24,098 bases of DNA, from IMG/VR virus record IMGVR_UViG_3300020394_000015, positions 1-24,098 of that record; one strand, written 5' to 3'. Numbering within the stretch: position 1 is the first letter of the stretch; every line of letters starts with the position of its first letter. The stretch is from a virus. This document shows, piece by piece, positions 5,252 to 24,098 of the stretch. Under the pieces are notes generated by a model that worked only from the letters and a program-made list of their open reading frames with translations, made no database searches and had not been told where the DNA came from. A program made the translations under genes and the position numbers.

Positions 5252-5419
5252 ATGGCTAAAAAAGGACTTTACTACAACATCAACAAAAGAAAGAAAGCAG
5301 GTACTAGCAGGTCTAAGAAGAATAGTACTATTAGCGAAAAGGCATATAAGAATATGCAAGCAGGGTTTCCTAAAAAAGGAAAGAAGAAAAAAACAGATCA
5401 GTTAAAAATGAGCAAATAG
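5252..5419 (+). CDS. Lysine-rich 55-residue protein
   Basis: The ATG at 5252 follows the scaffold stop by two bases (TAA TT ATG), and the reading frame gives 55 residues starting MAKKGLYYNINKRKK. There are 17 lysines and 2 arginines against 2 acidic residues, with a dense cluster KKGKKKKTDQLKMSK at the end. Proteins beginning MAKKGLY(A/Y)NI are, to my knowledge, widespread in marine and enteric phages next to structural genes, but their role is unknown. The composition suggests nucleic-acid binding. The conserved-looking N-terminus and tight spacing support a real gene despite the short length. Confidence 0.75.
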   Translation: MAKKGLYYNINKRKKAGTSRSKKNSTISEKAYKNMQAGFPKKGKKKKTDQLKMSK

Positions 5420-5464
5420 CTCAAGTTAATGATATATTTTATTTAAGCTACTAACTCGTAGTTC

Positions 5465-5731
5465 ATGTCTCCACGCAGAAAATCTTTATCTCTTAGAAAA
5501 TCTGACAAGAATCCAACAGGAGGATTATCAGAAAGTGGGAGAAGAAGAATAAACGCTGCTACAGGTTCTAAGTTGCAACGACCTGTCACTCAAAAGAGTG
5601 GACTTTCGCCTAGACAAAAAGCTAGAAAAAAATCTTTTTGTGCAAGAATGAAAGGTGTCAAAGGAGCTATGAAAGACGATAAGGGTAGGCCAACTAGGAA
5701 GGCTCTTGCACTACGCAAGTGGAATTGCTAG
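5465..5731 (+). CDS. Arg/Lys-rich small protein with conserved SFCARM and RKALALRKWNC
   Basis: This 88-residue protein is extremely basic (about 27 Arg/Lys and 4 Asp/Glu). It starts MSPRRKSLSLRKSDKNPTGG and carries GGLSESGRRRINAATGSKL, then KSFCARMKGVKGAMKDDKG, then PTRKALALRKWNC at the C-terminus. This arrangement is a recurrent phage family of unknown function (I believe it corresponds to Pfam DUF6321). The two cysteines, in SFCARM and at the final residue, are at the family's usual places and could bind a metal or each other. It lies just upstream of the major capsid gene. A DNA-associated or capsid-associated role is possible but unproven. Confidence 0.85.
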   Translation: MSPRRKSLSLRKSDKNPTGGLSESGRRRINAATGSKLQRPVTQKSGLSPRQKARKKSFCARMKGVKGAMKDDKGRPTRKALALRKWNC

Positions 5732-6892: not shown

Positions 6893-7012
6893 ATGCCTTA
6901 CGGAAAAGGTACTTACGGAAACAAAGTAGGAAGACCTAAAAAAAAGACAGACGATAAAAAGAAATCGTCAAAAAAAAACAAACTAATGGCTCTAAAGTTA
7001 TCAAAAAAGTAA
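6893..7012 (+). CDS. Lysine-rich 39-residue protein
   Basis: The ATG directly abuts the T-run of the terminator. The frame gives 39 residues starting MPYGKGTYGNKVGRPKKK, with 14 lysines and 1 arginine against 2 aspartates. Short proteins with the start MPYGKGTYG..GRP(K) are recurrent in phage head regions as far as I know, which argues that this is a gene and not chance. It has no visible ribosome-binding site except sequence within the hairpin, so translation would need read-through transcripts and may be low. The next gene starts six bases after its stop. The function is unknown; nucleic-acid binding is plausible from the charge. Confidence 0.65.
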   Translation: MPYGKGTYGNKVGRPKKKTDDKKKSSKKNKLMALKLSKK

Positions 7013-10081: not shown

Positions 10082-10534
10082 ATGGGGCATTTAAGAAAAT
10101 GCACCCTTAAAGATGTTCTTCATGTAAGTGACAACATGAGGGCTATGGATAGACTTGAAGCTGTTTATCAAACAAACCAAGACCCTGATGCTGCATTAAA
10201 AATTTCTTATCTTTCTAGTAAAACAGTTATGGCTATCTGTGGAGATGATGATAACCCGATTGGTGTATGTGGAGTAACTAATAATGGTGTTATATATATG
10301 GTTGCTACAGATGAATTATTTTCTAAGAAAAAATATAAAATACAATTAATAAGAGAAGGCAGAAAATGGGTTGATGATCTGTTGAAATCATATAAAATTC
10401 TATACAATGTGGTATATGCGGAGAATACAGCAGCTATGAAATGGTTAAATACTTTAGGGTTTAAATTTATCAAGTATCATAAAGAATATGGCGAACACAA
10501 AAAACCTTTTGTTCAATTTATGAGGACAATCTAA
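10082..10534 (+). CDS. Internal virion protein, T7 gp13-like with GNAT-type fold
   Basis: This 150-residue protein lies between gp12 and gp14 homologues, the place of T7 gp13 (138 residues), which is needed for stable assembly of the internal core. The sequence has GNAT acetyltransferase-like traits: an N-terminal LRKCTLKDVLHVSDNMRAMD, a central strand pair around AICGDDDNPIGVCGVTN, and the end region VVYAENTAAMKWLNTLGFKFIKYHKEYG, which fits the T7 gp13 pattern of an N/T-containing turn, a short helix with LKTIG, then a beta strand. A catalytic acetyltransferase role is doubtful because the acetyl-CoA loop is not clear. A good AGGAG (10069-10073) lies eight bases before the ATG. Confidence 0.82.
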   Translation: MGHLRKCTLKDVLHVSDNMRAMDRLEAVYQTNQDPDAALKISYLSSKTVMAICGDDDNPIGVCGVTNNGVIYMVATDELFSKKKYKIQLIREGRKWVDDLLKSYKILYNVVYAENTAAMKWLNTLGFKFIKYHKEYGEHKKPFVQFMRTI

Positions 10535-11163
10535 TGTGTTTTGTAGCACTTGGCACAGCATTAAGTGGAGGAGCTTTAACAGCAGGTACAGGAGCAGGAC
10601 TATTTGGTGCTTCTTTAGCTCTTAGTGCAGGTACACAAATTTTAGGTGCTGCTTCTAAAAATAGAATAGCTAGACAACAAGCATCATACGCATATCAAGC
10701 AGCAGAGAGAACAGCTAGATCGGCTGATGCTGCTATGACTGCACAGCAAGAAGCATTAAATGCACAATTACAAGAACGAAGGGCTGATGCTGCACAAAAG
10801 AAATTAGCAAAGACTGTTGAAGGATTAAAAGCTAGAGGGTCAGTAGCAGCAACAGAAGGTCGGTCAGGTAGATTAATGCAACTTATACAAATAGACGTAG
10901 ATAGACAAGTAGCAGGAATGAGAGAAAGTCTTAGTCAGTCTTTAGAATCAGCAGAAGTCCAATATAGTAGAGATGTTGCAGGAATAATTGGACAAAGAGA
11001 TAGTCGTAGAAATCAAGCTATGGATATAGGCAATAGAGGATATATGGAAGCACAGAAAAATTATCAAGGTTTACTACCTACAATAGCTAATATAGCGTCT
11101 GCGGGTTTACAGACTTATATAGACGTTGACCCAAATCAAAGAACCTTTACTACAAAAGAATAA
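10534..11163 (+). CDS. Internal virion protein, T7 gp14-like
   Basis: This 209-residue protein (T7 gp14: 196) should be ejected first and form a pore in the outer membrane. It begins Met-Cys (MCFVALGTALSGGALTAGTG), as T7 gp14 does, with a Gly/Ala-rich hydrophobic N-terminal region of about 40 residues that can enter membrane. A long helical, Ala/Gln-rich part follows (QASYAYQAAERTARSADAAM, then ALNAQLQERRADAAQKKLAK), and then GRSGRLMQLIQIDVDRQVAG. The start overlaps the previous stop (TAATG), with GAGG upstream. Context, N-terminus and coiled-coil character agree; the pore role is taken from T7. Confidence 0.88.
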   Translation: MCFVALGTALSGGALTAGTGAGLFGASLALSAGTQILGAASKNRIARQQASYAYQAAERTARSADAAMTAQQEALNAQLQERRADAAQKKLAKTVEGLKARGSVAATEGRSGRLMQLIQIDVDRQVAGMRESLSQSLESAEVQYSRDVAGIIGQRDSRRNQAMDIGNRGYMEAQKNYQGLLPTIANIASAGLQTYIDVDPNQRTFTTKE

Positions 11164-14100
11164 ATGGCAGTACCAGAGGGCTTTCAATCATTCACACAAC
11201 CTAGAGATACTTTTGTTCAACAAAGTACTCAGGCTGCTATTAACGTAACTGACCCATTAACTCAGGTTGCTACTGCGTTGGCGACTATAGAACCTACTTT
11301 GCAAAAATTTATACTACAAAAAATCGAAGATAAAAAAGAAGAAGAAGTAGCAGCAGGACAATCTAAAGGTCAACAAGCAGGTCGTGTATATACCAAGACA
11401 GAAAAATTATTATATCCACGAAACGTAGAGATAGACGAAACTTCAGAAGAATACGCACAATCTTTAGTTGCTTTAAGAAAAAATCAAAAAGCAATAGATG
11501 TAGAAATTACTAGAGGAAGAAGTGCATGGTTTAAAAACGCATATCAAGAAGCTAAAGCTATAACTTTAGGTAAAAACTTTGCAGTAGAACTTGAAGCTAA
11601 CTACGACACTTATAGAGTGCCAGACAGCGTTACAGGAGAAATGAAACCACTTTCTGCATATCCTTTTCAAAGTCCAGAAGTGCAAAACTATATCAGTTCA
11701 TTTAGAAATAAAAATGTTGAAGCAGCTAATATAGAAGACTTTTATTTTAATAGATCATTTCTACCACAGATAGAAAAAGGAGTAACAAAGTTTGCTACAG
11801 AACATGAAAAAGACCACTCATACTACAAGTTAGAAGAATATAGTAAATCGCTAAAAGAAAACTTAGGGTTAACTTGGACTGCTTATCAGCTTAAAAAAGC
11901 AAAGTTTGGAGATAAAGCAGATATGACAGCAGAAGCTAATGATATTAAACTCATGGTTGAAAACGTAGCAAAGTTATATCAAGCAGAAGATTTGGCAAAA
12001 ATTTATGACGAAGTAATTATTCCTTGGATTATGGAAAGAGGATTATTAATGGCATCTAATGACCAAATAGGTGCAGAAAGATTTGACATAGCTAGAGAAT
12101 TTTTAAAAGAATTTACTATGCTGTTTCCTCGAAAGATGAAGACAGAAACAGTAATAAATAAAAAAGGAGAAGTAGAAGTTAAACCAGTATTAAGACAAGT
12201 CTTTGAAGAAGATGGTAGTCCTACTATTGATGAAAAAGGTAAAGCTGTATTTGAGCCAGAATATTTTGACCAGAATGTTTTACAAACAAAAAAGAATTAT
12301 GAGAAGAAATTAAACACTGCACTAAAAGCAATTAATACTTTAGAAGTGCAATATCAAAAAACAGGTAAAGAAAAAAATCAAAGAGCAGACATATTAGAAA
12401 TGAAAACACTTTTGAAAAAAGGAAAAGAAATGACAAAGGAAGATAAGCAAAGAATAAAAGAGTTAGCTTCAAACAGTACAGCAGCTACAACATGGTTAAA
12501 AAATAATAGAGATACATATAACCCAAATACTGTGCAGAGTTTTAATCAGTTGTATAAAGAGTTAAGGGGTGGAGAAATACGTGACGATAAGTACGCTTAT
12601 GTACGAATTAATGATTGGTTTGACAGTACTTTAAAACTAGATAAAGATGAAGCTAATTATAAAAAACTAATTGAGATAGTAGATGATGAAGCTAACGAAG
12701 AGAAGAAATATGCAGCAGCAGGAGCAAAAGCAGTAGTTCAATCTAAATCACTTCTCTTTAATACTTTGCCTGACCAAACAAAAAACGACCCTTTGTTAAT
12801 GGATAAATTAAGTGATGAAATAGAAAAAATAGTGCCATACATGATTGAGTATGCAGAAACAAAACGAATTTTTGGAGAAGAAACAAAAGAAAGATACCCC
12901 ACAGTAGAAGAAATAGATCAAGAATTAGAGAGACAAAAAGAAGTTATGGATATTAATTTGTTAGCTATACAAAAGTTTGCATCTGAAGGAACAGCAACAA
13001 ATTTGAGTCTTGACCCATTTACCCCAGAAAACAAACAAAAAGATAAATCTATTAATATAGAAAGAATTAAATTTGTGCTAAGAGAATTGAACGGAAAACA
13101 AAGTTATGTAAATGGTAAAAAAAGAAAACCTACACTTGAAGACTTAGAAGATGCTTATGATTATTTAGGTACAGATGTAAGTATTGAATTTTTATTAGGA
13201 CAATATGACGCAGAGTTAGATAAGAATAAATTAGATAGCAAAATAGAATTAGCTAAATTATTAGACAATTTAGATTTAAGTTTTGAAGATATAGAAAAAT
13301 ATAATTTGTACGACAAATTTACTGAGATAGGTGCAGACATAACAAATAATTATGCAGACCTAACAAAAGTAATGGAAGAATATAAAGTATCTAAAAATAT
13401 TGACCAACCACCTAGTCCACCTACAGAAGATAATGCAGGTGCAAATAATCCAAATTTAAGACTTGATGGCAGTGGCGATAGGTTTGACGAATTAAATGAA
13501 GAAGAAAAACAACAAGTAAACGAAATGCTTGGTAGAGAGGTTTTTCCAAAGGTACAAACACCCTCGACCACTAATGAAAATGTAGAAAAATTAAATGTTT
13601 CAGATGAGACTACAGATGAGACAGTAGATACCAACAAGGAAGTTAAAACAGATAATAAACCTAAAACTAGAAAAGATTTGAATTTATCTAAAATCTTTGC
13701 AATACCTGAAGGGGCAACAGATGGCAGTTTACTTGCGTCAGGAGAAGTACCATTCCCAATAGGAGCAGGAAAAGATTTTGGAAAACAATTTGATTTTTAC
13801 TTAGAGGAATACTACGGATTTAATCAAGACAGCAGAATATACAAGCAAATGCCTGCTTACATAAAATCTAATTTAATGGAAGATTTCCAAGAACAACAAG
13901 CAAAAGACATAGCAGAAATTGAACAAGACAGTGAAGTAAAAACAACAGGAGATATGATAGAAAGTCTTGACTTGTCTGAAGTACAGTCTGATGTAACTCC
14001 AAACTTAGGTTTACGAGATGGCAGTCTTATAGCTATGGCTTTACCTCCAAAAGGCACAGAAACAAAACAGCAACAAGATACAGAAGTAGAAATTAGTAAA

Positions 14101-14577
14101 GACCCAAATAATGTAGTTCGTATGGAAACTAACTTTAAAACAATTTACGCTTTAGCTAAAGAAGTTGGTATTAAATTCCCAGAAGTAGTTGCTGCACAAT
14201 TTGGTGTGGAATCGCAACATGGATTAAAAGTTACTGGTACAAATAATTATCTAGGTATAAAAGCAAGACCTGAAGATATAGAATCAGGTAACTTTACTGA
14301 AGCTGAAACTTATGAAGAGATAGATGGCAAGATGGTTAAACGTATGGAGAAGTTTAAAAACTTTACATCTATAAGAGAAATGTTACTGGATTACAAGAAA
14401 CATTATAATGACGACTGGTTTAATGGATTTACAACTAGAAAAGGCACAGTCAATGTCAATACTGCTGAAGAAGCAATAATAAGATTAAAAGAAAATGGTT
14501 ATGCAACAGACTCAGACTACGTTAAGCTAGTGACAGATGTTCTTAATGATGCACGTAGAGAACCTCCCTTATTCTAA
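11164..14577 (+). CDS. Internal virion protein, gp15-like, with C-terminal glucosaminidase domain
   Basis: At 1137 residues this is much longer than T7 gp15 (747). The first roughly 780 residues are highly charged and mostly helical, starting MAVPEGFQSFTQPRDTFVQQ, as expected for a core/ejection-channel protein. A low-complexity acidic linker follows (for example NVSDETTDETVDTNKEVKTD). Residues from about 985 to the end resemble the glucosaminidase family (FlgJ/LytD type): VVAAQFGVESQHGLKVTG with Glu1016 in the place of the catalytic acid, then NNYLGIKA (1027-1034), matching the usual ESxxG...NNxFGIK pattern. It should cut peptidoglycan glycan strands during DNA entry. In T7 the wall-cutting domain is on gp16. 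The gp15 assignment rests on gene order; the hydrolase domain rests on motifs. Confidence 0.85.
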   Translation: MAVPEGFQSFTQPRDTFVQQSTQAAINVTDPLTQVATALATIEPTLQKFILQKIEDKKEEEVAAGQSKGQQAGRVYTKTEKLLYPRNVEIDETSEEYAQSLVALRKNQKAIDVEITRGRSAWFKNAYQEAKAITLGKNFAVELEANYDTYRVPDSVTGEMKPLSAYPFQSPEVQNYISSFRNKNVEAANIEDFYFNRSFLPQIEKGVTKFATEHEKDHSYYKLEEYSKSLKENLGLTWTAYQLKKAKFGDKADMTAEANDIKLMVENVAKLYQAEDLAKIYDEVIIPWIMERGLLMASNDQIGAERFDIAREFLKEFTMLFPRKMKTETVINKKGEVEVKPVLRQVFEEDGSPTIDEKGKAVFEPEYFDQNVLQTKKNYEKKLNTALKAINTLEVQYQKTGKEKNQRADILEMKTLLKKGKEMTKEDKQRIKELASNSTAATTWLKNNRDTYNPNTVQSFNQLYKELRGGEIRDDKYAYVRINDWFDSTLKLDKDEANYKKLIEIVDDEANEEKKYAAAGAKAVVQSKSLLFNTLPDQTKNDPLLMDKLSDEIEKIVPYMIEYAETKRIFGEETKERYPTVEEIDQELERQKEVMDINLLAIQKFASEGTATNLSLDPFTPENKQKDKSINIERIKFVLRELNGKQSYVNGKKRKPTLEDLEDAYDYLGTDVSIEFLLGQYDAELDKNKLDSKIELAKLLDNLDLSFEDIEKYNLYDKFTEIGADITNNYADLTKVMEEYKVSKNIDQPPSPPTEDNAGANNPNLRLDGSGDRFDELNEEEKQQVNEMLGREVFPKVQTPSTTNENVEKLNVSDETTDETVDTNKEVKTDNKPKTRKDLNLSKIFAIPEGATDGSLLASGEVPFPIGAGKDFGKQFDFYLEEYYGFNQDSRIYKQMPAYIKSNLMEDFQEQQAKDIAEIEQDSEVKTTGDMIESLDLSEVQSDVTPNLGLRDGSLIAMALPPKGTETKQQQDTEVEISKDPNNVVRMETNFKTIYALAKEVGIKFPEVVAAQFGVESQHGLKVTGTNNYLGIKARPEDIESGNFTEAETYEEIDGKMVKRMEKFKNFTSIREMLLDYKKHYNDDWFNGFTTRKGTVNVNTAEEAIIRLKENGYATDSDYVKLVTDVLNDARREPPLF

Positions 14578-17500
14578 ATGTCTCAAGAAATTACTTCTCT
14601 TACTCAAAACTCAGGAGTAGATACCCCTAAAGCTAAGATAATTAATGCAGTAGAAAAAATTAAAGAAGAAGAATTACAAGGTAAAGATGTAGTAGCAGAT
14701 GAAAATAAGATTGAAGAAATTAAAGAAGAAAGAAAAGACAAATCATTAAAAATACAAACAAATGAAGAGATACAAAATGCAAAAGTTAATCCTTTAGATA
14801 AACCAGAAACAGAAGATACATCATGGATACAAGGTGTTAAAAATTGGTATGACGCAAAAGTTGAAGAAAATAGACTAAAAAATGCAGAGTGGACTGAACA
14901 GTATATGAAAAATAAAAAAGAGTTACAAACAAGTTTAGTAGGTAAAATTATTGGAGGATTAATACATGGTCGTATAGAAAGTGTTAATGAACTGTATAAC
15001 TTTGGAGATGACGTTTTAGATTTAGTAATGGGAGATTTATATGATTCCCAAAGAGCAGACGACTTTGATCTAATAGGTTTTAAAGAAGGACATACAAACT
15101 ATGGTTTTAAGATAGGAGTTAGAGAACAATACAAAGAAGAAGCAGATGACGGATTACTTTCTGCTTATGGCTTAAGTAAAACAATAAGTCAATGGATTAT
15201 ACCAACAGGATTATTAGCTAAAAGTTTAAAAAAAATAGGAGTTAAAAGATTTAGATATGCTATTGCAGGTTCAATAACAGACGCAGCTTTAACAGACCCT
15301 TATGACGAAAACTTTTTCAATATGATTGAAGATGATTTGTCTTTAGCACACCCTATTTTAGATTTTTTAACTGCACCTGAAACAGGCGAATCTGAGGTAG
15401 AAGACAGAATAAGAGGTAGAATAATGTCTCTTGTTCAAGGGTTAGTTGTAGGAGAAGGAGTATTTGGTAAAGGTGTGCCTGCGGTAGGAAGATTTGGTAG
15501 AAGTGCTACAAAGCAATTTTTGACAAGAACAAAATCTTTACGTGAAGTTTTTGGTATAAAAAGTATTACTGATTTAACAGGAAAGAAAGGACAGGAAGTA
15601 GTTGATTATGTAATTGAACAATTATATAACATGAAAAGAAATGGCAAAAGAAGAACAACTATTATTGCAAAAATAAATGACACTATAAAAAAGAACGGAG
15701 CAGATATAACTCAAACTGAAGTAGATGAAATAGATGCAAACTTAATTGTTAGTCAAGTTAGATACAAAAAGGCTTTGCAAAAAGATAGTGGTATGCAGAA
15801 ATACTATAAGGAAATTGTAGGAGGAGATGGCAAATCATTATATGGAGTTCCTTTAAAAAATTCTAAGATTACTAGAACATTTAATCCACATCACTTATAT
15901 AAATCTGTATTTAAAAAAGATGGACAGATAGTTAACAAAGGTGCGATATGGGAATATATTGCTGCTAGATCAAAAGTAGTTGCAGAGTTAAACAAAAAAA
16001 ATAAAAGAAGTAACAAAGACTTATATCTAAAAGCAAAGACTCAATTACCTTTAGATGTGTTTGACGCAGCAGTAGATTTTGTTGATAAGTATGGAGTCGA
16101 GGGAGAGATTGATTTACCTGCTGTGATTATTACATTGAACGACATGATTTTAGAATCAGGTATTGTTCTACGTGACTTGTCAAGTCAGATGCACGAAATG
16201 GCAAAACTAACAAAAGGAGGAGTTCAGAAAGGAGATGCTTACCAAATATTAAAAAATGACTTGGCATTTACACTGCAATTTTATAGTGATTTATTAAATG
16301 TCAAAAAAGGTACAGGAGGGATTTTAGGTTCTGCTTTGCAGAATATAAATAAAACTTCAGCAGATTTAGTTGAAGGAGCAGATACAAGTGTCAAAGGATT
16401 AAAAACTTACTTTGAAAAAAGTAATCAAGATAAAGTCCTTGATGATTTAGCAAACTTTGAAAAGTCAGATGATGTTTTAATTGACAGTATGGAAGACCCT
16501 TTAGGGGAGTTTACTATAGCTCAAATCTTAAAGGCTGCTGATGATGGTAATACAAAAGCACTAATGAAACTTACTCGTCAGCTACATCTTGCAGCTACAA
16601 ATCCAAGAGCTATGAAGATAATTTTAAAAGCACAACAAGGTAATAATGTTATAAAAATTACTAACGAATTGTTTATAAATTCAATTTTATCTAGTCCAAT
16701 AACACATCAAGTCAATATGATTTCAACTGCTTTTAATACAGCTATGCGACCAGTTATGAAAATAATGGGTGGTGGATTTGAATTGGGAGAAGGATTGATT
16801 AAACAAGATCAAGCACTTATGGCTGATGGTAGTTTGACAGTTAAAAAAGCTATGATGGATTTGTATTATTTAACAGTTGCGTCTGTTGAATCTACAATTA
16901 TGGCAGGTAAAGCATTTATGCACAATGCAAATATTTTAGATGCTTCAAATCAAACTGTAGATTTATCAAAGTTAAACGCTGTAGATGTTAGCGATAAGTC
17001 ATGGCTTATAAAAGGATTTCATGGACTATACACTACACCACAAAGATTTTTAATGGCAGAAGATGAGCTTTTTAAACAAATTAATTTTAGAGCATACGTT
17101 AGAACAAAAATATGGGAAAGAAGTTTAAAGAAAAAATTTCCAACTAGAAAGGATTATGAAAAATATGTCAACGGACAATTTAAGAAAATCATTGATGTTG
17201 TTAATAAAGAATCAATGACTGGTAAATTATCTAAACAAAATGCACAGTTATATAAAGAAGCAAGACAGTTTGCAAACGAAGCAACATTTACAGAAGATTT
17301 ATTAAATGGAACTTCAGGTAAATTTGCACAAAGATTAGTTAACCAGAATCCAATACTGCGTCAGATCATACCTTTTGTTAGGACACCTATGAACATAATG
17401 AAGCAGTTTATGAAGACAACACCTTTAGCACATATATTAAAAGATCAACCTTGGGCTAAAAATCATCTTGCTTTTGTAAGAGAACATTCTGAAGAAATAA

Positions 17501-18999
17501 TGTCTAAAGACCCAACTATTAGAGGTATGGCAAAAGGAAGAATGATAGTTGGTAATTCATTTCTTACAGCAGGATTTTTATTATCTACTGCTGCAAATGA
17601 CCCTTTAGCTAGAGTTGCAATTACAGGTGGTTTACCTGCAAATAAACAACAGAGAGAAAAATTATTAGCTACTGGATATTTACCTTATTCTTTTAGATTT
17701 AGAGCTACAGAAGAAGACATAGCAAAATATGGGGCAGAAGGTAAAGCTTACGAAGTAATCCAACACCCTGAACACCCAGACGTAAAGTTAGTAAGAGGAG
17801 AAGATGGGAAGTTAGCTTATAGATATGTTAGTTATAAAAGAATTGAACCTTACGCTATGTTTTTGAGTTCAATGGCAGACTTTACAAGAGTTGTTGGACT
17901 AATGGGAGAAGAAGCACAAATTGAAAAAGATGGTTTATATCAAGTCTTGATGGCTGCTATATATAACAATATTGGAGATAAATCATATCTTAGAGGAATT
18001 ACAGAATTGTTTAGAGTAATAAATAATGAATCTACATTAAATGGATTTTTAATGAACAGACTTGCAACTTTAGCTGTACCTGTAAGTGGTTTACAAAAAA
18101 ATGTTAAGACTGCAATTAACTCAGGATTATTTGATGAAGGTAAGTCAGGCAATATACGTATGGATAAGAAAGTTGCTAAAGGAGAATTTTTAGATGATCT
18201 GGGGCAACCAAGTAATCTAAATGCTCCTTTGATAGTTTTTCAAAGATTACTTAATGAAATTGCAAATAAAACACCTTGGGGTAATTATAAAACAAGACCT
18301 ATGCAACACCACATCACAGGAGAATACTTAGAAACTCCTGTTGGTTTTGGTAAAGGAGAGATGAATCCATTTACAAGTGGTTGGTCACAAAAATCAATGA
18401 CTAATAACGATTTAGTCTTATCTGCTTTAAATGCAGTTGGGTTTGAATTTGCACCACCAACAGATGTTTTAGTTGGTAAAAACAAATTTAGTCAAGGAAT
18501 CTATTTAAACAACAACGAACTACAAGATTTAATAAGTGCAACAGCATTTACAGAGTTGTATTACGGAGGAAAAAGACAAAGAATGTATGACGCTATGATG
18601 CAAGTTTTAAAGAGTCCTTTTGGACAATTATCGTTAACTCAACTAAGTGAATATAGAGGAATGAAGGGAGAAATAAGTATGAAAGACAGAAGAGAAATGG
18701 CTAGAGTTACAGGTAATGATTGGTATATTACAGCAGACTTTAACGACAAAATGAGAGTTGATTTGATAGATGGTGTAAGAAAAGATTTAGGAAAAATATT
18801 GAGTGAGATTCATACTTTTTATACTAAAAAAGCTAAAGAAGCATATATCACAGGTGTTGGTTTGCCAGAAGGTATAGACCCTTTGCCTGAAGAAAAGAGA
18901 AAATTATATGAGGAAAATAAGAAAAATCTATTATTATTAGAACAAGGCTTTAATAAAACCAACACTTCTGAAAACTTAAAAGGCTTTATTAATTATTAA
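14578..18999 (+). CDS. Internal virion protein, T7 gp16-like, lacking the transglycosylase domain
   Basis: This 1473-residue protein is the largest ejection protein and should build the DNA-ejection tunnel across the periplasm and inner membrane with gp15. The N-terminus is a charged helical region (residues 1-120; KIKEEELQGK, KIEEIKEERK), without the lytic transglycosylase motif found at the start of T7 gp16. Around residues 920-1010 it carries NPILRQIIPFVRTPMNIMKQ, WAKNHLAFVREHSEEIM and the hydrophobic SFLTAGFLLSTAA, which resemble the conserved late region of gp16 proteins in marine T7-like phages. Start is an ATG directly after the previous stop with no Shine-Dalgarno site. Position, size and order make the assignment strong. 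Confidence 0.88.
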   Translation: MSQEITSLTQNSGVDTPKAKIINAVEKIKEEELQGKDVVADENKIEEIKEERKDKSLKIQTNEEIQNAKVNPLDKPETEDTSWIQGVKNWYDAKVEENRLKNAEWTEQYMKNKKELQTSLVGKIIGGLIHGRIESVNELYNFGDDVLDLVMGDLYDSQRADDFDLIGFKEGHTNYGFKIGVREQYKEEADDGLLSAYGLSKTISQWIIPTGLLAKSLKKIGVKRFRYAIAGSITDAALTDPYDENFFNMIEDDLSLAHPILDFLTAPETGESEVEDRIRGRIMSLVQGLVVGEGVFGKGVPAVGRFGRSATKQFLTRTKSLREVFGIKSITDLTGKKGQEVVDYVIEQLYNMKRNGKRRTTIIAKINDTIKKNGADITQTEVDEIDANLIVSQVRYKKALQKDSGMQKYYKEIVGGDGKSLYGVPLKNSKITRTFNPHHLYKSVFKKDGQIVNKGAIWEYIAARSKVVAELNKKNKRSNKDLYLKAKTQLPLDVFDAAVDFVDKYGVEGEIDLPAVIITLNDMILESGIVLRDLSSQMHEMAKLTKGGVQKGDAYQILKNDLAFTLQFYSDLLNVKKGTGGILGSALQNINKTSADLVEGADTSVKGLKTYFEKSNQDKVLDDLANFEKSDDVLIDSMEDPLGEFTIAQILKAADDGNTKALMKLTRQLHLAATNPRAMKIILKAQQGNNVIKITNELFINSILSSPITHQVNMISTAFNTAMRPVMKIMGGGFELGEGLIKQDQALMADGSLTVKKAMMDLYYLTVASVESTIMAGKAFMHNANILDASNQTVDLSKLNAVDVSDKSWLIKGFHGLYTTPQRFLMAEDELFKQINFRAYVRTKIWERSLKKKFPTRKDYEKYVNGQFKKIIDVVNKESMTGKLSKQNAQLYKEARQFANEATFTEDLLNGTSGKFAQRLVNQNPILRQIIPFVRTPMNIMKQFMKTTPLAHILKDQPWAKNHLAFVREHSEEIMSKDPTIRGMAKGRMIVGNSFLTAGFLLSTAANDPLARVAITGGLPANKQQREKLLATGYLPYSFRFRATEEDIAKYGAEGKAYEVIQHPEHPDVKLVRGEDGKLAYRYVSYKRIEPYAMFLSSMADFTRVVGLMGEEAQIEKDGLYQVLMAAIYNNIGDKSYLRGITELFRVINNESTLNGFLMNRLATLAVPVSGLQKNVKTAINSGLFDEGKSGNIRMDKKVAKGEFLDDLGQPSNLNAPLIVFQRLLNEIANKTPWGNYKTRPMQHHITGEYLETPVGFGKGEMNPFTSGWSQKSMTNNDLVLSALNAVGFEFAPPTDVLVGKNKFSQGIYLNNNELQDLISATAFTELYYGGKRQRMYDAMMQVLKSPFGQLSLTQLSEYRGMKGEISMKDRREMARVTGNDWYITADFNDKMRVDLIDGVRKDLGKILSEIHTFYTKKAKEAYITGVGLPEGIDPLPEEKRKLYEENKKNLLLLEQGFNKTNTSENLKGFINY

Positions 19000-19981: not shown

Positions 19982-22900
19982 ATGGCACAAATTGATTTAG
20001 GTAAACTCAAGTTTAATTGGAGAGGAGAGTGGCTTACGACCTCTACCTATGAAACAGATGACGTAGTTTATTACAATGGTTCTGCATACGTTGCGGTTCA
20101 AAATAGTACTGGCTCAAACCCTGCTAGTCAACACGCTTTAGGTACAGCTTGGGATAAGATGACAGAGGGTATAAATTATGCAGGAGATTGGGCTACAGGT
20201 ACTTATTACAAAGGAGATTTAGTTAGATATAATAACGCTTCATACTTATTAGTTACAGGTACTACTAGCGGTTTATACGCTTCGTCAGCACCTCCTACAG
20301 TTCCTTCAATCTGGAAACTTCTTGTTAATGCTCCTAGTGCTTCTGTATTAACAGCGTCAGGAGGAATGATATTTAGAGATAATGATGATACAACAAATGT
20401 TCAGTTACCTATTGGTGCAGTAGGTTCTCAGTTAAGTGTTATAGAAAAACCTTTAGAAGATATACCAAATGAAGGTAACTATGAATATAATCCAATACTT
20501 TTTGGTGGAACTAGAGTTGCATGGTTAACAGGAGATGAAAGAGAAACTTATGAATCTGTTAATTATACAGTTACAGTAGCAGCAGTAAGCGGTCAAAATC
20601 AATTTCATCTTAGTGGTGGTGGTCTTTCTGGAACTGTTGAAAGACCTACACTAACTATCAAGATTGGTTCACAGTATGTTTTTGATGTTAGTGACGCTAG
20701 TAATACAGGCCACGTTTTTGCTTTTGCATATCAATCGGGTACAGGTTCAGCTAGTTCTACTTATACCTATGTTAATAGTACTGGATATAGCGAAGCTGAT
20801 TTTGGAATTGTAAGAAGCGGTACAGCAGGTCAAGCAGGAGCAACGATTACATACACTCCAAAAGCACCTGCTTTATCTGTTAATAGATATGGTTGCTCTG
20901 TTCATAGTGCTATGGGTCAGGGTATTTTAAATACTTCATCAACAACACCAACGCTTTATCGAAAAAATGGATTAACAAGTGCTGTTAATGTAACAAAAGG
21001 AAAATCATATACATTTACTTTCCCTGCTAATGGTTTAACTTACTCAATCAAAGACCCTAATGCTAGTGGATATAGCGGAGTAGGAAGTGGTGGAAGAATA
21101 ACAGATGGAAGTGTTGTACCTCAATTTGTAACTAACGGAGGAAGTATTGTTTATACACCTCCTGTTGGTAGTACGTTAACTACAGTTGTTATTCGTGATG
21201 AAGCAAACCAAGCTGACACTATAAATCTATCCTTAAAAGATTTAAAAACTGTTCCTTCTTGGTCTGGTACTACTACATATAAAAAACATATTGTTCAGCA
21301 ACCTTATAATGTACCAAAAGATTTAGTAAAAGGATTTTGTCACTGGCCTAACGCAACAATAAATAACTATACAGAAAACTTATGGCCTTTACCTGCATAC
21401 TTAAAGAAAAGTGGTAGAGGATTTTTATATGGTACTTGCACAGCAGGTTATAGAAGGCAAGGTGCAATAGGAGAAAGAGCATATTTTGAATTTGGTAATC
21501 ACTATCATAGAAGTGGTTATGATTACACTTATGGCAGTGGCTATGGTGTTTATGGTCAAAACGCTTATGATGGTTCACACTCTTATCCTGCTAGTGGTGT
21601 TAATAGAACTCCTAAATTCTGGGAAGAAGCACTTGCAGGACACCCTGACTATGCACATTTGTTAACCGATCTAAATGGTAATGCTCTTGATTTGTATGAC
21701 CAAAATGGAAAGTTAAAATATCAATGGCCTAGATTAATGCAAATGCACAAATCAGGAAGGCATGGCTACCAGTTGTTTGAAAATGGCATGGTCATGGCAG
21801 GAGGTTATGGAGGTTACGGACTATGGGGTAATGGTGCTACTTGGGATATGAACGCAGCAGCTATGGGTGTTGTATTTTTTGATGACTCAGGAGCAAGATT
21901 AACAGGAGCAAACCACCCTAAAATTAAATTTATTTCTTTCTCTGCTGCACAAAATTTCAATGGGGATAGCGATAGTTATTACTCAGTTAGAATGTTAGAT
22001 ACAAACGGAAAGCTATATACATGGGGTTATAACGGATATGGACAGCTAGGAGATAACAGCACAAATAATGATTACTACGCAAAACAAATGCCTATGAGTA
22101 GAGTAGGTAATGAAAAAATTATTTATATATGTGATAGTGGCTATCGCTATACTGCTGTTTATGCGATAACAGAGTCAGGTAAGTTATATTCTTGGGGTAG
22201 AAATGGTAATGGTCAACTTGGTATAGGTAACACTACAGATCAAACAACACCACAAGAAATGACAGCAGTATCGGGTTCTCCTATTGAAAATAAAAAAGTT
22301 GTTCATGTTATAGCTAACCAAGATGGAGATGACGAAGGTAAAGTCTGGATATTAACTGACGAAGGTAAAGTTTATTTTGCAGGCTATCATGGTCACGCTT
22401 ACGGAGCAAGTGGTGGAATTTATGAAAGTAGTCCAAATAGAAAAGAAACCCCAGAAATACTTACTAACTCAGGTACTATGTGGAATAGTAATAATCAGAA
22501 AGTAATATATATGGCTTGTACTAACAACAGATATTCAACTTTATACTTTATTACTGATGGAGGAACTACTGGCTATAACCAGAAAGTATATGCTACTGGT
22601 TACAACTCTTATGGACAACAGGGAACTGGTAGAACTACAAGTGCCAACAATAACAGTACAGATTGGTTTGGTGCAGAAATACAGTTTAGAGATTTTGGCG
22701 ACCCAAGTTTAAATACAAATGGTTCTAATAACTCTAGACCAAATGAAGTAACTGGAACTTTACATTCATTCAGAGATGATACATCACACGCAAACTATAG
22801 AAAATTAAGAATAGGAACTATTGTAAAAATTCACGCTAGAGGTGGAGATCAAGAAGATGCAAACAGAGTTGTATTAGAAGATGATGAAGGAAGGCTATTT

Positions 22901-23203
22901 GTTGCAGGTTACTGGAACTATATTCCTGTACCATATTATGAAGCTGATGGTAATAATGACTGCTTTGTAGATGGTAGAGAGTGGACAGATTATTTTGTAC
23001 CTTGGTGGGGAACTCCTGAAACTATAATTGAAGGTGGATTTACACATCATCACTCAGGTAGTGGCGAAACTGGTAGTTCCATTCTCACTAAGTCAGGAGA
23101 GTGGTATAGGCATGGAGATAATTCATGGTACAGCAGTGGGGATTATCATAGCAGTAGCCAATGTTGGATTAAATCCAACTGGAATCAATTTACAGGAGAT
23201 TAA
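19982..23203 (+). CDS. Long multidomain tail fibre: CBM-like repeats, cupredoxin-like domain, RCC1-like propeller
   Basis: This 1073-residue protein is the probable receptor-binding fibre. Residues about 12-115 hold two tandem modules of the pattern W.G.W...T.Y..D.V.Y...Y (FNWRGEWLTTSTYETDDVVY; YAGDWATGTYYKGDLVRY), as in carbohydrate-binding and fibre head domains. Residues about 200-315 look like a cupredoxin fold, with His244 and CSVHSAM (Cys305, His308, Met311) in the places of type-1 copper ligands; a second similar beta domain without ligands follows (to about 420). From about residue 600 to the end, seven RCC1-like strands recur at residues 602, 677, 734, 796, 868, 971 and 1040, such as KLYTWGYNGYGQLGDN and KLYSWGRNGNGQLGIGN. 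No enzyme motif is seen. Fibre identity rests on context and domain style. Confidence 0.85.
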   Translation: MAQIDLGKLKFNWRGEWLTTSTYETDDVVYYNGSAYVAVQNSTGSNPASQHALGTAWDKMTEGINYAGDWATGTYYKGDLVRYNNASYLLVTGTTSGLYASSAPPTVPSIWKLLVNAPSASVLTASGGMIFRDNDDTTNVQLPIGAVGSQLSVIEKPLEDIPNEGNYEYNPILFGGTRVAWLTGDERETYESVNYTVTVAAVSGQNQFHLSGGGLSGTVERPTLTIKIGSQYVFDVSDASNTGHVFAFAYQSGTGSASSTYTYVNSTGYSEADFGIVRSGTAGQAGATITYTPKAPALSVNRYGCSVHSAMGQGILNTSSTTPTLYRKNGLTSAVNVTKGKSYTFTFPANGLTYSIKDPNASGYSGVGSGGRITDGSVVPQFVTNGGSIVYTPPVGSTLTTVVIRDEANQADTINLSLKDLKTVPSWSGTTTYKKHIVQQPYNVPKDLVKGFCHWPNATINNYTENLWPLPAYLKKSGRGFLYGTCTAGYRRQGAIGERAYFEFGNHYHRSGYDYTYGSGYGVYGQNAYDGSHSYPASGVNRTPKFWEEALAGHPDYAHLLTDLNGNALDLYDQNGKLKYQWPRLMQMHKSGRHGYQLFENGMVMAGGYGGYGLWGNGATWDMNAAAMGVVFFDDSGARLTGANHPKIKFISFSAAQNFNGDSDSYYSVRMLDTNGKLYTWGYNGYGQLGDNSTNNDYYAKQMPMSRVGNEKIIYICDSGYRYTAVYAITESGKLYSWGRNGNGQLGIGNTTDQTTPQEMTAVSGSPIENKKVVHVIANQDGDDEGKVWILTDEGKVYFAGYHGHAYGASGGIYESSPNRKETPEILTNSGTMWNSNNQKVIYMACTNNRYSTLYFITDGGTTGYNQKVYATGYNSYGQQGTGRTTSANNNSTDWFGAEIQFRDFGDPSLNTNGSNNSRPNEVTGTLHSFRDDTSHANYRKLRIGTIVKIHARGGDQEDANRVVLEDDEGRLFVAGYWNYIPVPYYEADGNNDCFVDGREWTDYFVPWWGTPETIIEGGFTHHHSGSGETGSSILTKSGEWYRHGDNSWYSSGDYHSSSQCWIKSNWNQFTGD

Positions 23204-23465: not shown

Positions 23466-23942
23466 TTGGATTATCCACAGATTGATATACCAGAAAGTTT
23501 AGTACCGCCTAAAACAATTTTTTATCCACCTGTGGCAGACGTTCCATATCTAGACCCTTTACTTCTTCCAAGTCTGGAACAGGTAGAGTCGGGTTTGGGA
23601 GGTCAGGAATCTTCTGCTGAAGAAGGTAAATCATCTTCAAAGGAGGAAGGGTTAGAAGTAAAACCAGAGACAATACCGACAAACCTGCCAAACACCAAAG
23701 AGCTTTTATCAACTGAAGAACCTGTAGCTACATTTAATATACCTTTTTTTGGGGAAATGCCTATACCTGCCCCAGAAGTCATAGCATCTAGTGTTATAGC
23801 TAGTGGTGTATCAGCTACAGCAGCAGTGACAGGTTCAATAGTTTTGCAAAGCGTTATTAATCAGCTAAAGAAAGTAATGACAAAGATATTTAAGAAAGTA
23901 CTTAAAAAAGAGATTACTAATCAGAAAAAAGATCAGAGTTAG
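23466..23942 (+). CDS. Proline-rich protein with one probable membrane segment and basic tail
   Basis: This 158-residue protein uses a TTG start directly after the previous stop, with GGGAG four to five bases upstream; no nearby in-frame ATG exists. Residues 1-40 are rich in Pro, Tyr and Leu (PPKTIFYPPVADVPYLDPLL), residues 41-80 are acidic and Ser/Gly-rich, residues 92-104 are again Pro-rich (IPFFGEMPIPAPE), residues about 105-131 form an Ala/Ser/Val/Ile hydrophobic segment, and residues 134-156 are strongly basic (KKVMTKIFKKVLKKEI). This order (long outside region, one membrane helix, positive tail) could suit a holin-like or membrane-anchored lysis protein, and T7 has its holin gene after the fibre gene. 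A virion role is equally possible. I do not recognise the family. Confidence 0.7.
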   Translation: MDYPQIDIPESLVPPKTIFYPPVADVPYLDPLLLPSLEQVESGLGGQESSAEEGKSSSKEEGLEVKPETIPTNLPNTKELLSTEEPVATFNIPFFGEMPIPAPEVIASSVIASGVSATAAVTGSIVLQSVINQLKKVMTKIFKKVLKKEITNQKKDQS

Positions 23943-24098
23943 CTTTAACATAACTTCGTATATTGATTACATCACTACAGATATATGCGAACTTAGATTT
24001 AGGATTTATCATGTAACCGCTTGCGTGAAGCTGCCCACACTTCAAAACTCTCACTAATTGCTTATCATGGACTTGCTTGTCTAGTTCTTCTTTGGCTA
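23917..24098 (-). CDS. Possible minus-strand gene, 3' end only (runs off window)
   Basis: On the minus strand one frame is open from the right edge to a TAG at 23919-23917, about 60 codons, ending in the residues YVKANSDLFSD and containing LVRVLKCGQLHASGYMINPK. The plus strand from 23943 has no ORF of note. The composition looks protein-like (no low-complexity runs), and 60 codons without a stop are uncommon in AT-rich DNA. It would be convergent with the preceding gene and overlap its last 26 bases. No family is recognised. All other genes here are on the plus strand, so a chance open frame remains possible. Confidence 0.4.
   Translation of the reverse strand, partial: AKEELDKQVHDKQLVRVLKCGQLHASGYMINPKSKFAYICSDVINIRSYVKANSDLFSD

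Follow-up and report, generated by a model that had tools for sequence, protein, structure and literature searches.

The window, a stretch of 24,098 nucleotides (positions 1 to 24,098 of IMG/VR record IMGVR_UViG_3300020394_000015), comes from a marine T7-like podovirus and encodes an ejection (tunnel) protein of the gp15 class, which ends in a GH73 domain carried on a flexible linker. Judged by its sequence and by analogy with other T7-like phages, this domain very probably acts as a virion lysin at DNA entry. The features concerned are as follows.

10534–11163, + strand: gp14-like internal virion protein, 209 aa (T7_gp14, E 4.7e-4, under the Pfam cut-off; phrog_805 internal virion protein, E 1.3e-5).
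11164–14577, + strand: gp15-slot ejection/internal virion protein, an open frame of 1137 aa.
13522–14130, + strand: variable linker from the gp15 body to the GH73 domain, residues ~787–989 (pLDDT < 50 over most of it).
14010–14490, + strand: GH73 cassette, the segment exchanged between phages (DNA identity profiles against G002 and L005; tree conflict).
14143–14550, + strand: GH73 (PF01832) glucosaminidase domain, residues 994–1129 (Pfam, FlgJ sequence matches, Foldseek).
14209–14211, + strand: Glu1016, predicted to act as the general acid; its StFlgJ counterpart is Glu184 (alignment to QAALESGWG of 5dn5).
14314–14316, + strand: Glu1051, a glutamate of the beta-hairpin; its StFlgJ counterpart is Glu223 (alignment to TTTEYENGE of 5dn5).
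14497–14520, + strand: GYATDSDY, a conserved C-terminal GH73 motif (aligns to GYATDPNY/GYATDPSY of FlgJ).
14578–18999, + strand: internal virion protein of the gp16 slot, 1473 aa, matching phrog_6651 over residues 821–1183 (E 3.9e-40).

The initial annotation had proposed a glucosaminidase-type C-terminus for the gp15-like protein from the motifs ESQHG (containing E1016) and NNYLGIK (1027–1033); both sit exactly at these positions, and profile searches confirm the family. PF01832 matches residues 994–1129 of the full 1137-aa protein (E 1.2e-11, 45.8 bits) and also residues 983–1137 searched alone (E 1.3e-13, 52.1 bits), both above the curated cut-off of 30.2 bits. The nearest PDB relatives by sequence are the FlgJ GH73 domains of Salmonella and Sphingomonas (E 4.2e-5 with the single sequence in phmmer; E 2.5e-8 for the FlgJ match with a clade profile in hmmsearch against the PDB), and the four best-ranked Foldseek matches in the PDB are catalytic domains of GH73 type (best E 7e-3), with a query model that is of low confidence in the domain. 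In StFlgJ, E184 is the general acid and E223 lies in the beta-hairpin, with E223Q leaving residual activity only (PMC4752226). Both tyrosines of the GYATDSDY motif are invariant across the clade alignment of 11 members, as are E1016 and E1051, while many other positions vary. The constancy of the two glutamates argues against a GH73 fold that only binds peptidoglycan or packs in the core without cutting, a very improbable reading even though some relatives add a LysM-like peptidoglycan-binding segment beside the domain. As read from these alignments, residues 994–1129 are an intact and catalytically plausible GH73 endo-beta-N-acetylglucosaminidase domain.

The 11164–14577 open frame is flanked in Pfam and PHROGs profile searches by the gp14-like gene before it and the gp16-like gene (phrog_6651) after it, and the window has the T7-type ejection-protein order of gp14-like, gp15 and gp16-like genes. 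A PHROGs search gave no match of the frame to T7 gp15 (phrog_1339); its assignment to the gp15 slot comes from synteny and size, together with a low-confidence model that is mostly helical, rather than from similarity to T7 gp15. Gp15-like proteins are mostly assigned from synteny and size (PMC8954989). The full-length AlphaFold model (11 sequences) has a mean pLDDT of 56.5, too weak for claims on the fold of the gp15 body, and the GH73 domain itself also scores low. In profile comparisons, the gp15-slot protein showed no usable homology to marine gp15s (probability 19%) or to those of cyanophages (0.3%). Elsewhere in the window, the gp13-slot protein (10082–10534) matches T7 Gp13 (E 1.1e-6) and, weakly, GNAT acetyltransferases, and small open frames very rich in Lys/Arg (5252–5731 and 6893–7012) flank the capsid gene. 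A tail-fibre-like protein (19982–23203) has RCC1-type repeats at residues ~659–811 (phrog_4219, E 2.3e-14), with Pfam RCC1/WD40_RLD matches among the scanned proteins of near-identical relatives; an RCC1-type beta-propeller is unusual for a tail protein.

The segment between the gp15 body and the GH73 domain varies in length between relatives, with ~110 residues absent in L003, and its low model confidence suggests that it is probably disordered. It had been described as an acidic linker; a linker it is, and its acidity is only mild (D+E 0.18–0.21 versus 0.19 in the protein body, with K+R dropping to 0.08–0.14), making 'acidic' a weak description. Just before the GH73 domain lies a twelve-residue motif, NLGLRDGSLIAM (residues 947–958, window 14002–14037), which varies little or not at all across the clade and, where the gp15 bodies of other loci are very divergent, can still be recognised as DGSLLAM or DGALIAM; a related sequence, DGSLLASGEVPFPIGAG, is found upstream of it. 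Two or three members have a LysM-like segment preceding the GH73 domain, seen as VESGDTLSGIA... directly before it in the gp15-slot proteins of L079, L080 and L082.

The position of the domain is strongly conserved. Viral contigs were searched with both the gp15 body and the domain; matches were numerous, and 32 loci were examined. In all but two of these (30/32, related marine contigs), the gp15-slot protein ends in the GH73 domain and gp16 starts 0–10 bases later, and the position is kept even where the gp15 body is 20–25% identical or not alignable; one exception ends before gp16 and the other has a broken-up frame. All complete clade members have GH73 as a fusion to gp15, and a separate late lysis gene form was not seen among them. 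More distant matches to the domain (~36% identity or less) are in other, often free-standing proteins.

Within this fixed position, the GH73 segment behaves as a cassette exchanged between phages. The window and L003 are 84% identical in the gp15 body and 90% in gp16 and 74% in the domain, whereas L005 is only 32% identical to the window in the body and 43–47% in gp16 and 93% in the domain; L068 and L069 similarly combine 20–24% identity in body or gp16 with 87% in the domain. Along the DNA, identity between the window and L005 is 78–100% in the 14010–14490 segment and 35–55% right after the gp15 stop. Trees conflict accordingly: the body tree groups the window with L003 (support 100/99), the domain tree groups it with L032 and L005 (100/100), and the domain data reject a window plus L003 clade (AU p 3e-4). 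In the reverse test, the body data did not significantly reject a window plus L005 grouping (p 0.09), and long branches are involved. Across 26 loci, domain and gp16 identities to the window show no significant correlation (Spearman 0.22, p 0.29), a descriptive figure as the rows are related. Over 14.5 kb, contig G002 and the window are 99.8% identical; at the opposite end of G002, which continues identically into gp16, lies a second GH73 allele (61–68% DNA identity at ~14250–14430) between window-type flanks. This suggests two GH73 alleles on one backbone in one population, the main caveat being assembly chimerism.

The gp16-slot protein bears on a further claim of the initial annotation, that the hydrolase had moved from gp16 to gp15 with replacement by a different enzyme family. 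T7 does carry a lytic transglycosylase at the gp16 N-terminus, as SLT and PHROGs matches confirm. A Pfam scan of 18 gp16-slot proteins (from the window, pelagiphages, roseophages, cyanophages, T7, phiKMV and others) found SLT in exactly one (E 1.7e-31), identified as that of T7 because the PHROGs transglycosylase matches of T7 gp16 are at residues 1–140. With this positive control, the gp16-slot protein of the window matches no Pfam family up to E 1, hence no SLT by sequence, and the proposal that its gp16 has no transglycosylase is fair at that level. A gp16 clade profile found nothing in the PDB, and profile comparison gave no usable homology with T7 and phiKMV gp16. The model of gp16 residues 1–760 (pLDDT 41, with meaningless Foldseek matches) is unusable, so that a gp16 enzyme of an unrecognised family may remain hidden; the PhiM1 gp16 counterpart has an internal endolysin-like domain. 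A different enzyme family on the gp15 C-terminus, with none detected in gp16, thus stands, but the move itself is unsupported: no transglycosylase is detectable in gp16 of the marine relatives scanned with Pfam either, and hydrolases at the C-terminus of gp15 are well established. T7 is a distant comparison for this phage, not its ancestor. That the clade ancestor genuinely lost a gp16 transglycosylase and gained GH73 on gp15 would account for the contrast between T7 and the window clade, yet is improbable given the same lack of gp16 SLT in the marine relatives; moreover, many Autographiviridae have the hydrolase on gp15, so the T7 arrangement may equally be derived, and no tree polarises the change.

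The virion-lysin role is proposed because a GH73-family enzyme occupies the end of the gp15 slot. The gp15-slot protein would be packaged in the head core and, on infection, expelled through the tail to build a trans-periplasmic tube, and its C-terminal GH73 domains may then make local cuts in the glycan strands to let the tube and the DNA through. This would be the job done by the transglycosylase of T7 gp16 and by the gp15-slot lysozymes of phiKMV, SP6 and PhiM1, and would resemble that of FlgJ for the flagellar rod.

An additional or alternative role in lysis, with late gp15 or a linker-cleaved fragment degrading the wall so that one domain serves entry and exit, is unlikely, although several observations fit it. 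In the near-complete relatives G002 (38 kb), G001 (36 kb) and G003 (37 kb), the scanned open frames gave no further recognisable endolysin family among the first 25 of 90 PHROGs families listed, and PF01832 matches only gp15 in these three contigs. Related cyanopodoviruses such as S-CBP1 have free-standing GH73 lysins, and the variable, probably disordered linker would suit release of a fragment. However, a gp15-borne GH73 domain coexists in S-CBP1 with a separate GH73 'lysozyme' protein, virion lysin and endolysin are separate genes in phiKMV and SP6, and the many late small genes without known function make an unrecognised separate lysin likely. A bolder proposal, which we also think improbable, is that the GH73 tip is the only peptidoglycan hydrolase in this group of marine podoviruses, serving both entry and lysis, with alleles traded as a cassette to match host wall chemistry even within one population; if true, the gp15 tip would be a host-range determinant.

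A reverse-strand gene block (window 23917–24096, − strand, and L052:10011–11075) is conserved in relatives and matches phrog_1755, phrog_848, phrog_650 and phrog_21865; two of its genes have signal-peptide-like starts and one is membrane-like, making them candidates for lysis or envelope functions. Relatives also encode a tyrosine integrase (L054:10067–10903 and L052:18773–19498; Phage_integrase, E 1.3e-20), which suggests a possibly temperate T7-like phage. A search of bacterial genomes found no prophage relative of the window phage.

A virion lysin at the gp15 tip, as preferred here, has clear precedents, and the hydrolase-on-gp15 arrangement that had been presented as new is already documented. 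Reviews list gp15-slot lysozymes in phiKMV gp36 and SP6 gp36 (PMC8954989, PMC5380687) and a gp15-slot hydrolase in K1E/K1-5 (PMC8954989), and a 2022 review is explicit that the domain of gp16 may be swapped onto the homologue of gp15. PF00959 matches the C-termini of the phiKMV and SP6 proteins; the phiKMV lysozyme was missed by Pfam on the whole protein at E 0.01 and found in a C-terminal fragment, which makes the lack of a match in a relative scanned as a whole protein weak evidence. As in the window, the hydrolase of these two phages lies at or near the end of the gp15-slot protein, between gp14- and gp16-like genes, and the phrog_342 match of the phiKMV gp16-like protein begins after the part that holds the SLT domain in T7. 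Their enzyme, however, is a PF00959 lysozyme rather than GH73, and the gp15 bodies have no detectable similarity to that of the window. In PhiM1, cryo-EM places a lysozyme-like domain (residues 718–903) at the end of the octameric gp15-class OEP and an internal endolysin-like domain in the gp16-class TEP (PMC11440229); the location on the OEP is that of the window domain, but the fold is lysozyme-like and the TEP adds its second domain. The window domain would therefore be a gp15-slot virion lysin of the phiKMV/SP6/PhiM1 kind, with GH73 in place of PF00959. In the open-access papers searched, there is no description of a glucosaminidase or GH73 domain on a gp15-class protein, nor of its cassette exchange between phages.

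The cultured Synechococcus phage S-CBP1 also has a GH73 domain in this slot. Its gp15-slot protein (L048:3670–6633; AGK86540.1, phrog_24152), annotated as a 'hypothetical protein', matches PF01832 at residues 743–838 (E 3.3e-11), and the phage also has the separate GH73 gene annotated as lysozyme. By inspection, the S-CBP1 domain is without the beta-hairpin segment bearing the second glutamate, unlike that of the window; it is followed by ~150 more residues, and the gp15 body is not similar. Other cyanophage gp15-slot proteins end differently: Syn5, S-CBP42 and S-TIP28 have PF18013-like ends (under the Pfam cut-off), and proteins annotated as 'hypothetical' contain SLT plus M23 in S-CBP4 (L058:4014–7118) and SLT_3 in S-CBP3 (L059:10288–13263). 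In S-CBP4, a PF01832 match at L049:5477–5845 (record 38204–38572) lies in a 263-aa open frame that carries no gene annotation and is probably an overlooked lysin.

These comparisons support a view of the gp15 C-terminus of T7-like phages as a site where unrelated enzymes that cut the wall can generally dock (PF00959, PF18013-like, SLT, SLT_3 and GH73), T7 itself being different, and add a marine group in which the enzyme at the gp15 tip is exchanged as a unit. They offer a concrete way into the question of how ejection machines may adapt to differing host walls, and a simple annotation rule for many 'hypothetical' gp15 proteins. In T7 the enzyme is of the SLT family and sits on gp16, whereas the window has GH73 on gp15 with no SLT detected; the presumed common task is the opening of peptidoglycan for the ejectosome (PMC8954989). 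FlgJ shares with the window domain its enzyme family and catalytic glutamates but is a bacterial flagellar protein with no virion context, and its opening of the wall for a trans-periplasmic tube, the flagellar rod, resembles the role proposed for the phage domain.
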